Of a DNA stretch of 64,000 nucleotides, positions 7,618-13,565 are shown in pieces (within the stretch, counting starts at the first letter, position 1; the number at the start of each line of letters is the position of its first letter). The translations under genes were made by a program, and so were the position numbers. The notes below the pieces were generated by a model that was not told the origin of the DNA, did not search any database, and saw nothing but the letters and a program-made list of their open reading frames with translations. This DNA is from Rhodanobacter humi (GTDB lineage: Bacteria; Pseudomonadota; Gammaproteobacteria; Xanthomonadales; Rhodanobacteraceae): contig NZ_JBGBPY010000001.1 of assembly GCF_041107455.1 (NCBI RefSeq), positions 3,472,001 through 3,536,000 of the forward strand, in the 5' to 3' direction.

Positions 7618-8740
7618 GTCGCGGCGGATGCGGCATGGCCCGCGCCTGCTGCCGGCGCTGGCGGGTTTCGGCCTGCTGCTGGCAGCCGGTGGCTGGGGAG
7701 CGATGGCGCAGGACGCGGCGCGCCCCACCGGCGACTACGTGCTGGCGCAACTCGATGCGGCGCGGCAGGCGTTGGCGCAGCGCGCGACGCAGCAGCCGGA
7801 TCCCGCCCTGGCCGAAGCCGGGCGGCAGCTCGGGCAGATCGGCGATGCCCTGCGCCGGCAACTGGGCGGCGCGACGGCCCAGCCCATCGAGATCCTCGGC
7901 GACAAGACCAAGGCCGCCGCGCTGCGTGCGGATGCCGCCGCCCAGCGCACCCAGGCCTGGCTGAAGGCTTCGTCCGGTTGTCGCGGCAGCGACGCGAAGG
8001 CGCTGGCGGCGGCGCTGGCGTTGGCCGTCGAGCGACTCGCCGCGGCGCCGACCTCCGACAAACCATCGCCGCCGGTGATCGACGCGGTCGAGACGGCGGA
8101 CCAGCAGCCGTTGTTCGTGATCCATCCCGCCGACCAGCCGCTGGCCTTCGCCGTGCTCGGCGCGAACCTGCTGGACGCGCAGTGCGCGAATCCGCAGGTG
8201 AGCCTGACCGACGCGCAGGGCAAGCCGGTCGACGCGCAACCCGTCATCACCGGCATCACGCCGCAGCGCATCGCGCTCAAGCTCGCCAACACGACCGGCC
8301 TGCAGCCGGGCGGCTACGTGTTGCACGTGGTGCCGCAGCGCAAGGCCTTCCTGGTGGGTTGCACGAAGCAACCCGAGGCGGTCGCGGCGTTGCAGGTGGC
8401 GCCGCCGCTGCACGTGGTCATCGACTACACGCTCAGCGCGACTTGCCGCGGACAGGGGCAGCTTACCCTGGGGCACGGCAGCCTGCCGGCCATCGCGAAG
8501 CAGGGCGCCACCGTGTCGCAGCCGATCGATGCGGCGGCTTGCGCGAATCCCGAGAGCTACACGATCAGCGCGACCGCGCATTTCGGCGATGGCGACCAGG
8601 CCACGGTGGGGCCGGTCACGCAGCCGGCCGATGCCGGCATCACCGCCGGCCTGCCGGGCGGCTTGACGCTCAGCTGGAACCCGGCCATCCACAGCCTGTT
8701 CGCGCGTGCCGAGGCGAACCAGTGCCGGGGCAGTGGCTGA
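7610..8740 (+). CDS. Secreted six-cysteine protein of unknown function, coupled to the exoprotein
   Basis: 376 residues. The ATG lies inside the 3' end of the exoprotein gene (8-bp overlap), which suggests translational coupling and a joint role. Residues 8-34 form a signal peptide, with a hydrophobic core around LLPALAGFGLLLAAG and probable cleavage after AMA. Residues 40-145 are Ala/Gln/Arg-rich and probably helical or coiled-coil. Residues 155-265 look like an Ig/IPT-type beta domain, and a second beta region follows. Six cysteines (124, 192, 251, 279, 311, 372) could make three disulfides in the periplasm or outside the cell. I do not recognise a family. A partner, chaperone or anchor for the exoprotein is an inference from the overlap alone. 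Confidence 0.75.
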   Translation: MTESRRMRHGPRLLPALAGFGLLLAAGGWGAMAQDAARPTGDYVLAQLDAARQALAQRATQQPDPALAEAGRQLGQIGDALRRQLGGATAQPIEILGDKTKAAALRADAAAQRTQAWLKASSGCRGSDAKALAAALALAVERLAAAPTSDKPSPPVIDAVETADQQPLFVIHPADQPLAFAVLGANLLDAQCANPQVSLTDAQGKPVDAQPVITGITPQRIALKLANTTGLQPGGYVLHVVPQRKAFLVGCTKQPEAVAALQVAPPLHVVIDYTLSATCRGQGQLTLGHGSLPAIAKQGATVSQPIDAAACANPESYTISATAHFGDGDQATVGPVTQPADAGITAGLPGGLTLSWNPAIHSLFARAEANQCRGSG

Positions 8741-8752
8741 AGGAGCCGGGAC

Positions 8753-9785
8753 TCATTCGTCGCCGCTGGAACCGGAGATGATCTGGAATTCCGACAGGCC
8801 GCCGGGCGCCAGTTCCTTCATCAGGTCGACGAAGTCCATGCCGACCAGCCGCTGCGCGCGGCGCAGCAGGTGCGGGATCGGACTGGAGGGTTCGCGCCGC
8901 GTGTAGTACTCGCAGATCTCGTCCAGCCGACGGATGACGTCCTGCGCCGTTTCGATGCGGCCACTCGCCCCGCTTGCGGGCGCCGCGCCGGGCGCCGCCT
9001 TCCGCGTCGGCCGGGGCGTCCGCGGTGCCGGCCGGCGCGCGCTTGGCGACCTCGACGTCGAGGAATTTCTTGAGCTCGTAAATCTCGCCGAGCAGCGGCT
9101 TGAGATCCGGTCCCGCCGTGCCTATGCGGTCGGTGAAGATCGCATCGATGGCGCGGGCGTGTTCCATGGCCGTCGTTGTCGCCTGGGCGGCGTCGAGCAA
9201 CTGCTCCTCGGGGCAATCCAGGCAGCAGGCTTCGATGTCGGTCATGCTCGGTGACGCGGCATCGCCCTCCGCCGAGGTTTTCAGCGTGCCGTTGGCGATG
9301 CGCAGGTCGCGCAGCGAGAACCGGCCCAGGCGTGGGGACTGCACGAACGGCGCGCCGCGGAAGTAGCCCAGCACGCCTTGCATGTCGACCAGCGGCATCA
9401 CTGCGTTCACGCGCGCGGTGGGGTCGTTGTCGTCCTCGGCGTCCAGTTGCGGGTGCACGCTGTCCCAGAGGTTTTCCAGCAGGCCGCGGATCAGTGCCAG
9501 TCCGTCGGACCAGCCGGCGAGCCCGTGCATGCGCGTCCATGCGGAGGTGAGGTGCACGGCCACGCGCAGGTCGCGGCTGCGGCCCAGCAGGGCTTCGCCC
9601 AGCGACGAAACCTTGTCCCAGTCGGGTTCCTCGGCGGTCTTCACGCTGTCGCCGATCGCGCGCTCGGCCTTCGGCGTGGCCGTGCGTTCCAGGGTCTGGA
9701 AGTCGGCGTCGTATTCCAGGTCGGGGCCGCTCGGGGCCTCGTCGGCAAGCGGTGTCAGCAGCGATTCCAGATCGTGGCGCGCCAT
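8753..9785 (-). pseudogene. tssA: Type VI secretion protein TssA (ImpA family), frameshifted
   Basis: The N-terminal part (MARHDLESLLTPLADEAPSG, followed by an ImpA_N domain with DLRVAVHLTSAWTRMHGLAG) is typical of TssA, which caps and primes the type VI sheath. The start is the ATG at 9785, which has GGGGAAA upstream. After residue about 265 the frame is lost near 8990-9000. The expected C-terminal end (RRLDEICEYYTRREPSSPIP to ISGSSGDE) continues in another frame and stops at 8753. One extra G in a GG pair of the coding strand (8998/8999) explains the shift, and an intact product would be about 343 residues. No other type VI gene is near, so this is an orphan copy. It could be a real pseudogene or a sequencing error. 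Confidence 0.85.
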
Positions 9786-9872
9786 CGGATTTCCCCTTGT
9801 ACCCAAGCCCCGAATGGTACATCAGGCGGGCTGCACAAGGTTCGCCGCAAGTGCCGTTCGATGCGGCAACAC

Positions 9873-9912: not shown

Positions 9913-12900
9913 TCAGAAACGCCAGTCGAAGCTGCCGCGGAAACCGCTGTCCACCGCGTGGTGAGCGAGCTGGCCCTGCCACGACAGGTCGAACGAGGCG
10001 TGCTTCGCCAACTGCACGGTGAGTCCGGCATCGGCGGCCAGCGCGTTGCGGGCGATCGGCAGGCCCTGCACCGCGAACGACTGGCCGCTGGCGAAGGCCA
10101 TCGACGTGACCGTGACCACGCTGCCGTAGGCGCGACGCCAGCCCAGCATGGCGTGCAGGCTCAGCGTCTGGTCGCCGTGCAGCGCGAAGTTGCTCGCCGC
10201 CCGCGCACCGAGCGTGCTGTAGCTGACCGAACGCGTCTCGCCCATGCCGTCCAGGTCCGCGCCGCCGCCGTGTTCCTGGAAGCCGTCCGTGTGCAGGCGA
10301 ACATGGGCGACCTGGGCGATGGGCTCCAGCGAAGCGCGCTTGAACGCGAAGCGGTAGCCGGCTTCGCCGAACACCTGCGCGGTGCCGGCGTCGTAGCGGC
10401 TCAGCTCGTGTCCGACGAGGCCCGGCACGGCGACGAAACGGGTGCCGTCCAGCGTGTGCCAGCCGTAGGCGGCGCCGGCGCGCAGGCCCAGCGCGCCGAG
10501 CTGGGTGCCGGCGTAGACGCTGAGGTCGAGATCGCGGCTGGACATCGAGGAGGCGCGCGCCGTCGTGTTCACCGCGGTCTGCGTGTAGCCGGCGGCGACG
10601 CCGAGCCGCGCGCTGTCGCCCAGCGCGCGATCGGCACCCACGAGGAAACCGCCGCTGGTGTGCCTGGTCGAAGCGGCGTTGCCGTCGCTGTCGTGATGCC
10701 CCCACGCGCCCACGAACTGGCCCCACCAGGCGAGCCCGCCCTGGCCGTCCTGCACCGCCGGGCCACTGACGCCTCCACCGGCCTGACGCAGGCGGCCGGT
10801 GACGGCATCGCGTACATGGCGGCTGTCTTCCAGCAGCACGCCCTGCGTGGTGGCGTGGATCTCGCCGGAGAGCTGGTCGGCCGCGGCACGCAGCGCTGCA
10901 TCAGTGGGCAGGTTGGCGAGCACGGTGTAGAGCGCGGCGGAAGGCGCGGCACCAGCGGCCGTGGACATCGCCACCGCACGCCAGGCCAGCGGGCGGATGC
11001 CGGCGCCGTTCGCCTGGCCGGTGACGGCGCCGAGGCTGGACAGGCTCTGCACGCCGCCCAGCGTGGCGCGCTGGTTGGGCGTCCGCGCGGCGTCGGTGAA
11101 GGCGCGCGCCTGCACCACGTCGAGGTACGCGTGCTGCGCATCGTAGGCGGGAGCGATGCCCAGCACCGCGCTCAGCATGTCGGCGCCGGCCAGCGTGTAG
11201 GTGCCGCTGAGCCCGTGGCTCGCGTCGAGCACGGTGTAGCGGGCGCCCACCTGGTAGAGCCCGTTGCCGGCGACGGATGCCAGGCCGATCTGCGCACCCT
11301 GGGCGAGGGTGGCGCTGCCGCCCACCGCGATCAGGCTGGACACGCCGGCCTGTGCCGGATCGAGTTGCACAAGGTAGGCCGAGCCGGCGCCTTGGGTGTA
11401 GTTGCCGCCCACGCTGAGCGTCTGGTACTGCCCAAGACCGCTGCCCGGCGCCACGGCGCCGGTCGTCGCCAGGCTGCCGCCGATGCGGCCTTGGCCGATC
11501 AGCAGGCCGCCGTTGGCCACGTTGCCCGCGATGCTGCCGTTGTCGACCAGCAGGCCCAGGTTGACCACGCCGCTGGCCAGCGAGCCTTCCACGTCCAGCG
11601 TCGCGGGCGCGCCGACCCCGGTGGCGCCGGTGTAGGTGTTGGTGCCGGTGAGCGTCTCCTTGCCGCCGGACACGATCAGGCGGCCACCGCTGCCGCCGCC
11701 GATGCCGCCGTCGGCGATCTGGCCGCCGAAGCTTCCGCTGGCGTTCGTGAGGTCCAGCGTGGTGCCGCCCAGCTGCACCAGGCCGCTACCGGAGAGCGAT
11801 TGCACCGTAGTGGCCTGCCAGGTGCGCGAGATGTCGAAGATGCCGTCCACGTGCACGTCGGACGAGGCCGCGATGCTGCCCGGACCGGCCAGCGCCAGCC
11901 AGGCGTTGCCGGCGACGAGGGTGGCGCCGGTGTAGGTGTTGGTGCCGGAAAGATCGGCAATGCCGCCGGCCGCCACCTGGAACGGGCCGCTGCCCGAGAT
12001 CGTGCCGGCGAGGCCCAGCGGACCCATGTCCGGCGTCACGGTGAAGCCGGTGGTGATGTTCGCGGTGGAGATGAAGAACGGCGTGTACGCGGTGGACTGG
12101 TTCGCCAGGTCGTACATCACCGCGTTGTGCATGAAGAACGAGAGGCCGTAGATCGCCGCGTCGGGGAAGCCGCCGTAGGCGCCCAGCGTGACCACGTTGC
12201 TGTAGTCGCCCTGGCTGTCGCTGCCGCTGGCGACCGAGGCCGGCAGGCCGGAGATGACCAGGCCGTTCGCGGTGACGGCGAGGCCGGTGGCGGTCAACGT
12301 GACGCCGGGCACCAGGTTGCCGTTCGCGTTGATGTTGCCGGCCGCCTGCTCGGCATTGGCCAGGCCGAGGTCGCCGTTGTCGATCAGCATGATGTTCGGC
12401 GTGCCGGTGTCGAACAGCGTCATCATCGGTGCGCTCACGCTCTTGCCGCCGCTGGTGAGCGTGTACAGGAAGGCGGTGTCGAACTGGTACGCCGAGGGCG
12501 CGCCCGACAGCGGGAACGGGCTGGTCTGGCCCTGGGTGGGCAGCCACGGCACCACGCTGAGGAACTGCGCGCGCAGCGCGGGCGTGAGGCCCTCGATCAG
12601 GCAGGCCTGGGCGCAGGCGCCCGGCGCCTTGCCGCTGCCGTTCGCCTCCACGATGTAGCCGCTGCCGGTGAGCATGCCGGGCACGCCGTTGCCGAAATCG
12701 CCGGCGCCGAAGGTGCCGTAGAACAGCCCTTCCTCGGGCGGGTTGCCCTGGTCGAGGTTCTGCTGCCAGGTGAGGTCCTGGTACAGCGTGACGCCGCCCT
12801 GGGTGGTGACCGCCGGCCCCAGCGTGTCGCCGCCGGCACTCTGCGGGGTGACCATCCAGTCGATCGCCGTGGCCACGGGCAGACCCTGCGATGTGGCGTA

Positions 12901-13305
12901 GCTGGCGGCCTGCGTGCCGGTGGCGGAGTTGTAGAACTGCACGCTGGCGACGGTGGTGGAGGCCTGCCAGTAGCCGTAGGTGCCGTTGCCGTAGAGATAG
13001 GCGTACGGCGCGCTCTGCGCCACGCCCGGCTGGCTCGGGAACCAGGCCGGCGCGTGGCCGTTGTTGCCCGCGCCCACGTCGATGTTGAAGGAATCCGAGC
13101 CGGTGTCGAACAGGTACTCCTCGGGCGTGGCCCCGTTGACGCCCACGTTGATGCCCAGGCGGTAGCCGTACTGGCCGCCGCCGTAGTTTTCCTGGATCAG
13201 GTCCAGCGGAATGCTGGTGCTGGTGTCGGCGGCGAATGCCGGGTGGAACGGTGCCAGCAGGCACGCCAGTGCCAGCGGCAGCGGCCGCAGATTGAGCTTG
13301 CTCAC
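9913..13305 (-). CDS. Autotransporter with N-terminal pepsin-like aspartic protease passenger
   Basis: 1130 residues from a GTG start at 13305, chosen because GGGGAGAG lies 7 bases upstream and a signal peptide follows directly (residues 1-25, ending PAFA). Residues about 40-410 carry the hallmarks of a two-lobed A1 (pepsin) protease: first catalytic motif FDTGS (D67), a flap-like YGNGTYG (Y105), second motif FDTGT (D299), and a final IYGLSFFMHNAVMYDLAN (385-402) resembling the pepsin C-lobe. Two GTNTYTGAT motifs follow, typical of passenger-associated repeats. From about 860 to the end lies an autotransporter beta-barrel ending in FDWRF, with terminal aromatic. The protease is probably displayed or released at the cell surface. 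An unproteolytic adhesin is possible, but both Asp motifs are intact. Confidence 0.85.
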   Translation of the reverse strand: MSKLNLRPLPLALACLLAPFHPAFAADTSTSIPLDLIQENYGGGQYGYRLGINVGVNGATPEEYLFDTGSDSFNIDVGAGNNGHAPAWFPSQPGVAQSAPYAYLYGNGTYGYWQASTTVASVQFYNSATGTQAASYATSQGLPVATAIDWMVTPQSAGGDTLGPAVTTQGGVTLYQDLTWQQNLDQGNPPEEGLFYGTFGAGDFGNGVPGMLTGSGYIVEANGSGKAPGACAQACLIEGLTPALRAQFLSVVPWLPTQGQTSPFPLSGAPSAYQFDTAFLYTLTSGGKSVSAPMMTLFDTGTPNIMLIDNGDLGLANAEQAAGNINANGNLVPGVTLTATGLAVTANGLVISGLPASVASGSDSQGDYSNVVTLGAYGGFPDAAIYGLSFFMHNAVMYDLANQSTAYTPFFISTANITTGFTVTPDMGPLGLAGTISGSGPFQVAAGGIADLSGTNTYTGATLVAGNAWLALAGPGSIAASSDVHVDGIFDISRTWQATTVQSLSGSGLVQLGGTTLDLTNASGSFGGQIADGGIGGGSGGRLIVSGGKETLTGTNTYTGATGVGAPATLDVEGSLASGVVNLGLLVDNGSIAGNVANGGLLIGQGRIGGSLATTGAVAPGSGLGQYQTLSVGGNYTQGAGSAYLVQLDPAQAGVSSLIAVGGSATLAQGAQIGLASVAGNGLYQVGARYTVLDASHGLSGTYTLAGADMLSAVLGIAPAYDAQHAYLDVVQARAFTDAARTPNQRATLGGVQSLSSLGAVTGQANGAGIRPLAWRAVAMSTAAGAAPSAALYTVLANLPTDAALRAAADQLSGEIHATTQGVLLEDSRHVRDAVTGRLRQAGGGVSGPAVQDGQGGLAWWGQFVGAWGHHDSDGNAASTRHTSGGFLVGADRALGDSARLGVAAGYTQTAVNTTARASSMSSRDLDLSVYAGTQLGALGLRAGAAYGWHTLDGTRFVAVPGLVGHELSRYDAGTAQVFGEAGYRFAFKRASLEPIAQVAHVRLHTDGFQEHGGGADLDGMGETRSVSYSTLGARAASNFALHGDQTLSLHAMLGWRRAYGSVVTVTSMAFASGQSFAVQGLPIARNALAADAGLTVQLAKHASFDLSWQGQLAHHAVDSGFRGSFDWRF

Positions 13306-13518: not shown

Positions 13519-13555
13519 AAAAGACGAAGGGCCCGGCGATGCCGGGCCCTTCGTC
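13519..13555 (-). terminator. Rho-independent terminator of tRNA-Val
   Basis: Stem GACGAAGGGCCCGGC pairs with GCCGGGCCCTTCGTC, and on the minus strand it is followed by TTTT. It begins about 10 bases after the tRNA 3' end. Confidence 0.85.
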
Positions 13556-13565
13556 TTCGATTCGG

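Follow-up and report, generated by a model that had tools for sequence, protein, structure and literature searches.

A predicted pepsin-fold passenger on an autotransporter barrel in Rhodanobacter humi, a probable type V-secreted aspartic protease

Does one gene of Rhodanobacter humi, which we take to be a soil-type bacterium, encode a pepsin-like enzyme together with the apparatus that carries it to the cell surface? The question is raised by a long open reading frame in a stretch of 64,000 nucleotides of its genome (hereafter the window), for which a sequence-only reading had proposed a pepsin-like aspartic protease as the passenger of an autotransporter. We put the probability that the gene product is a type V-secreted aspartic protease, with a pepsin-fold passenger carried on an autotransporter barrel, at about 0.8. 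The features of the gene are collected in Table 1.

Table 1. Positions in the window of the pepsin-fold autotransporter gene, its domains and motifs, and the hairpin that follows it.
Feature	Position in window	Strand	Remarks
Whole gene, encoding an autotransporter whose N-terminal passenger has a predicted pepsin fold	9913..13305	(-)	1130 aa, GTG start
Signal peptide, residues 1-26 (VSKLNLRPLPLALACLLAPFHPAFAA)	13228..13305	(-)	By inspection: basic n-region, hydrophobic core, A-x-A
Pepsin-fold protease domain (predicted), about residues 27-413	12067..13227	(-)	AF2 model; Foldseek and VIA-align matches
N-lobe catalytic motif D67-T-G-S70	13096..13107	(-)	Invariant in 32 homologues
Flap motif Y105-G-N-G-T-Y-G	12973..12993	(-)	All 32 homologues keep the Tyr and the first Gly
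C-lobe catalytic motif D299-T-G-T302	12400..12411	(-)	Asp and Gly invariant; some homologues DSG
C-lobe psi-loop/end motif AAIYGLSFFM, residues 383-392	12130..12159	(-)	Gly invariant; compare pepsin WILGDVFI
Linker (about residues 426-855) with beta-strand repeats of the autotransporter type	10741..12030	(-)	TIGR02601 9e-4
Beta-barrel of the autotransporter (from residue 860 to the C-terminal Phe1130) and stop codon	9913..10728	(-)	PF03797, TIGR01414
Strong hairpin directly 3' of the stop codon	9866..9912	(-)	-31.1 kcal/mol, z -5.7

The reading frame runs from 13305 to 9913 without an internal stop over 1130 residues, on the minus strand, which the sequence-only reading had left out. Its GTG start is supported by the ribosome-binding site GGGGAGAG just upstream and by the conservation of relatives from that point on. 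The signal peptide proposed earlier was recovered by inspection and is kept in relatives. In agreement with the earlier description of a complete beta-barrel, PF03797 covers residues 860-1108 (5e-57), TIGR01414 matches at 6e-35 and the chain ends in Phe; this barrel is the sole region of the 1130-residue protein that Pfam recognises. Among the NCBIfam models, that of the autotransporter barrel domain and, weakly, that of a beta-strand repeat were matched; the barrel region also fits the model of EprS. The passenger repeats are real though weak in the window (TIGR02601, 9e-4), and relatives give PATR matches. The protein thus combines the marks of a type Va autotransporter, an N-terminal signal peptide (by inspection) and a PF03797 barrel that ends the same chain.

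Both DTG motifs were found where they had been described, and the spacing between D67TGS and D299TGT is exactly 232 residues. When the domain was shuffled 100,000 times, two motifs of the type hydrophobic-D-T-G-S/T arose in 8 cases. Conservation was assessed in 32 homologues sharing 28-90% identity with the window protein, and D67, T68, G69, S70, Y105, G106, D299 and G301 were invariant in this set. In the C-lobe, homologues have either DTG or DSG, both of which are usual in aspartic proteases, and one of them has DTGA; T302 falls at the position of pepsin Thr218. The flap-like YGNGTYG noticed earlier at Y105 is likewise a conserved element, which reads YG(D/N)G(T/S) with few exceptions. Psi-loop motifs are kept in both lobes, as IYG in the C-lobe and as TFG in the N-lobe of the window protein, where Thr takes the first position and many other homologues have IFG or ILG. 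The protease domain has the pepsin-like end that had been claimed for it (AIYGLSFFMHNAVMYDLANQSTAYTPF), and this C-lobe motif is in register with pepsin and plasmepsin V. The sequence features of clan AA, that is D-T/S-G-S/T and a psi-loop Gly in each lobe together with the flap Tyr, are accordingly all present. Two positions differ from pepsin: Trp39, which adjoins the flap, corresponds to Asn74, and Ser219 to Pro303.

The AF2 model of the protease domain, based on 32 homologues, has a mean pLDDT of 86.9 and a pTM of 0.89. A first model, based on 24 sequences from one bacterial family, had a pLDDT of 66 and was poor between the lobes; addition of second-lineage sequences to the alignment raised this value to 86.9, and the poorer model gave the same pepsin-fold answer. 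A Foldseek search of the PDB returned 539 chains at E up to 0.001, with values down to 3e-11, and each of the best 50 of these 539 chains has the pepsin fold (50/50, including pepsin, plasmepsin II and cathepsin D). VIA-align gave Z scores of 20.7-21.6 to plasmepsin II, cathepsin D, pepsin, renin and penicillopepsin over 268-292 residues (21.6 for plasmepsin II with pepstatin and 21.0 for human pepsin), and the aligned span, model residues 1-386, comprises both lobes. The lowest rmsd among the best 50 fold matches was obtained for the PE_PGRS16 domain of M. tuberculosis (4ehc; rmsd 2.6 over 251 of 280 residues, Z 20.8). The domain is thus shown by prediction to be a two-lobed pepsin fold of clan AA, a point on which the sequence-only reading was to stand or fall. 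Since the model matches pepsin-inhibitor complexes end to end, D67 and D299 are implied to face each other.

A pepsin fold may also serve a function other than proteolysis, and the passenger could be a binding or adhesion module without catalysis. Plant xylanase inhibitors and basic 7S globulin are non-catalytic modules with a pepsin fold, and the latter (3aup) appears among the structures matched by the protease domain. The changes at the Trp39 and Ser219 equivalents point in the same direction and count against a type V-secreted protease, and PE_PGRS16 (4ehc) was inactive when tested, as cited in PMC6819658. We nevertheless consider a non-catalytic passenger unlikely, because a passenger without catalysis would not be expected to keep the two Asp, the two Gly and the flap Tyr unchanged in 32 sequences that go down to 28% identity. 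In addition, PMC2761423 names non-peptidase homologues, which have lost active-site Asp, and purifying selection acts on both lobes of the domain. Among Rhodanobacter relatives, the protease domain is 89-92% identical, compared with 74-79% for the linker and 74-82% for the barrel, and dN/dS in Rhodanobacter pairs is about 0.21-0.26 in the protease domain versus 0.34-0.47 in linker and barrel. Of the three main regions, the protease domain has the smallest dN and dN/dS and is the most constrained, as expected if catalysis is what selection keeps.

The sequence-only reading had placed the domain with A1-type pepsins; the pepsin fold and clan AA part of this claim stands on the model, but membership of A1/PF00026 was not borne out by sequence. 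PF00026 gave no match on the protein or on the whole host genome, no Pfam aspartic protease model scored above threshold with the domain, and searches of PDB sequences with the single sequence or with family profiles yielded no significant match to it. The best sub-threshold PDB profile match was plasmepsin V (E 0.28), with D-T-G-S and the final psi-loop in register, and hhalign with pepsin gave E 0.024 and a probability of 2%, in an alignment where the Asp motif of the C-lobe and the last psi-loop both fall in register (the porcine pepsin sequence used for the pepsin comparisons was checked against PDB 5pep). Matches to MCM8 and Mis16 in the PDB sequence searches were dismissed as chance. As neither Pfam models, PDB sequence searches nor the PF00026 profile detect the domain, it is at sequence level a family of its own in which A1/PF00026 membership is not detectable. 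This failure of aspartic protease sequence models to recognise the domain also weighs against a type V-secreted protease.

Most eukaryotic A1 members have a prosegment. The window protein leaves no room for one, because D67 lies just 41 residues past the predicted signal cleavage; in pepsin, 31 residues precede D32. These results bear on the possibility that the passenger is a classical family A1 pepsin of recent eukaryotic origin, joined to an autotransporter that was already resident. A1 enzymes do have this fold and motif order, and the distribution is patchy, with one copy on a conjugative plasmid. Such a gain is very improbable in our view, as there is no match to PF00026 or to PDB sequences even with family profiles, the hhalign E value to pepsin is only 0.024, a prosegment is absent, and the family is already present in two lineages at 28-35% identity.

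PF00026 was detected in 2 of 185 other genomes sampled from the class of the host, from which we conclude that two-lobed bacterial pepsins are rare. Rawlings and Bateman described bacterial A1 homologues without signal peptides (PMC2761423). Two PF00026 proteins, L071 and L072, from two other gammaproteobacterial genomes have signal-peptide-like N-terminal stretches, contrary to the early report of bacterial pepsin homologues that lack them. Judging by the start of L071, secreted bacterial A1 proteins may exist too.

The pepsin-fold protein recurs in other bacteria with the same two-domain layout, for which the sequence-only reading had proposed a search: in Rhodanobacter, Dyella, a second lineage and Paracoccus. 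All 10 loci in titled genome records (Rhodanobacter, Dyella and MAGs) have the barrel in the same frame. Within the family of the host, 29 of 233 species genomes, from 9 of 26 genera, encode the protein, and in a sample of 369 genomes from the host's class it was absent except in the window's own genome. A sample of the phylum revealed the second lineage in genus g392, with three further genera within the family of g392. One copy lies on a conjugative plasmid of Paracoccus denitrificans, so that at least this copy is in Alphaproteobacteria. The barrel partner is full in the loci L075 (PF03797 3e-70) and L068 (PF03797 3e-61), and near-universal rather than universal in the family: two second-lineage genomes encode a barrel-less pepsin-fold protein (L073:2838-7262 and L074:2751-6854) with a clean end after the repeat region. 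These two relatives form a further point against a type V-secreted protease. Matches in genus g299 (L045 and L046; E 0.001-0.006) were short, lacked the catalytic motifs and were discarded.

Some further observations concern individual loci. The genes at the barrel-less loci stand in a conserved order, in which the pepsin-fold gene is preceded by a PDZ-type acidic-tail gene and followed by a DUF4424 gene. DUF3011 and SBP_bac_3/Lig_chan glutamate-receptor-like proteins are encoded near second-lineage copies (L068, L074 and L075). Genome G068 contains two adjoining autotransporter copies (contig C28:139107-143938; L061 and L063), with 52% and 48% identity to the window protein.

For a type V-secreted aspartic protease, the layout suggests the following route. 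The signal peptide would direct export to the periplasm, after which the C-terminal barrel would insert in the outer membrane and the passenger would move out through it; PF03797 barrels deliver the passenger that lies N-terminal to them. Outside the cell, the N-terminal ~390 residues would fold into the two predicted pepsin-like lobes and bring D67 and D299 together beneath the flap with Y105, while the repeat stalk would keep the enzyme away from the membrane. Aspartic proteases activate a water molecule with the two Asp of their DTG/DSG motifs, which lie beneath a flap that carries Tyr, and proteolysis here would proceed by water activated between D67 and D299. Because the active site is intact and conserved, the domain is most likely proteolytic, and by these sequence features the passenger is most likely an active, surface-exposed aspartic protease. 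The enzyme would probably be kept inactive just by staying unfolded until it is outside; unfolded transit may thus replace a prosegment, since the passenger has none and would fold at the surface. Acid habitats are commonly described for Rhodanobacter and Dyella, which together with the Thr kept at the pepsin Thr218 position makes an acidic optimum likely, and the passenger is probably an acid-active protease that works without prosegment. Loss of Thr at pepsin position 218 has been linked with neutral activity in renin (PMC2761423). Likely roles of the enzyme would be the cutting of surrounding proteins or the trimming of the cell's own surface proteins.

Among known systems, those that work most nearly in this way are PecA for the enzyme and the subtilisin-type autotransporters for its delivery. 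PecA is a mycobacterial surface aspartic protease, type VII-secreted, that cleaves itself, acts in trans and trims PE_PGRS proteins (PMC6819658). PecA/PE_PGRS35 and PE_PGRS16 (4ehc) resemble the window protein, as predicted here, in being bacterial, secreted, surface-located and two-lobed, with DTG and DTG/DSG motifs. PecA differs in its type VII export through a PE domain, its C-terminal protease and the absence of a classical signal peptide and of a barrel; the window protein has a signal peptide and a barrel in place of PE domain and type VII secretion, and neither PecA nor PE_PGRS16 matched its protease domain in the PDB sequence searches. EprS and SphB1 (subtilisin type) and the SPATEs share the signal peptide, N-terminal protease passenger, linker and PF03797 barrel, but are serine proteases of another fold, whereas the window protein would be aspartic. 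Shewasin A and D of Shewanella (family A1) are alike in being two-lobed, gammaproteobacterial and free of a prosegment (PMC4814920, PMC2761423). Shewasin D is cytoplasmic (PMC4814920), and the shewasins match pepsin by sequence and have no signal peptide, unlike the window protein with its signal peptide and barrel and without a PF00026 match. Pepsin, cathepsin D, plasmepsin II and rhizopuspepsin share the whole-domain fold, Asp pair, flap Tyr and psi-loops with it; these eukaryotic A1 enzymes are about 15% identical to the protease domain, and differ in an Asp spacing of 183 versus 232 here, reflecting insertions between the lobes, and in the prosegment, Trp39 and Ser219, which the window protein does not have. 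APRc of Rickettsia is also an aspartic protease linked with autotransporters, but it is single-lobed, of the retropepsin type, and is discussed as an autotransporter processor (PMC4140852), not being an autotransporter itself. No autotransporter with an aspartic protease passenger was found in the literature searched, which comprised few subscription journals.

The comparison with PecA also raises a narrower job for the same molecule, in which the protease would not scavenge but would mature proteins at the surface, trimming its own passenger along with others. The nearest parallel in function is PecA, which is located at the surface, cleaves itself and acts in trans (PMC6819658); 4ehc gave the lowest rmsd among the best 50 fold matches, and PMC6070651 assigns such a job, on FHA, to the subtilisin-type autotransporter SphB1. 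Against it, we found no conserved neighbouring substrate gene, the flanks of the gene differing between Rhodanobacter strains and Dyella. We entertain this restricted role tentatively, as a possibility short of an even chance.

The autotransporter gene appears to stand alone. The hairpin directly after its stop codon probably ends the transcript; it lacks a T run, and a scan for a consensus terminator after the gene found none. Upstream lies tRNA-Val (13640-13566) with its own hairpin, a GC-rich one followed by TTTT directly after the tRNA gene (13520-13560, minus strand), which is probably its terminator. A gene for the type VI secretion protein TssA lies downstream in the window, L002 and L003, but tssA was not found beside the gene in L001, L010 or Dyella, and we therefore claim no functional link between the two. 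In the window, tssA (ImpA_N; 8670-9806, minus strand) is frameshifted, its C-terminal part being in another frame, whereas the L002 orthologue occupies one frame; the window copy is either a pseudogene or the result of an assembly error. At a Dyella locus, a TonB receptor gene and a FecR-type gene lie upstream of the autotransporter.

The sequence-only reading is thus supported overall, but its claim that a bacterial surface pepsin would be unusual has to be narrowed. Mycobacteria are already known to have pepsin-fold proteases at their surface (PecA, 4ehc), so that the new element is delivery by the type V route. On balance, though with considerable reserve, we lean towards an undescribed clan AA family with a non-A1 sequence, type V-delivered, prosegment-free through folding outside the cell, acid-active and present in two proteobacterial lineages. 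The pepsin-fold autotransporter family would then consist of two-lobed bacterial aspartic enzymes that lie beyond the reach of current family models and occur in a surface-delivered form. It would add aspartic catalysis to the protease autotransporters and supply a pepsin fold that naturally has no prosegment. As a divergent outgroup from bacteria, it may also bear on the long-standing question of the origin of two-lobed pepsins.
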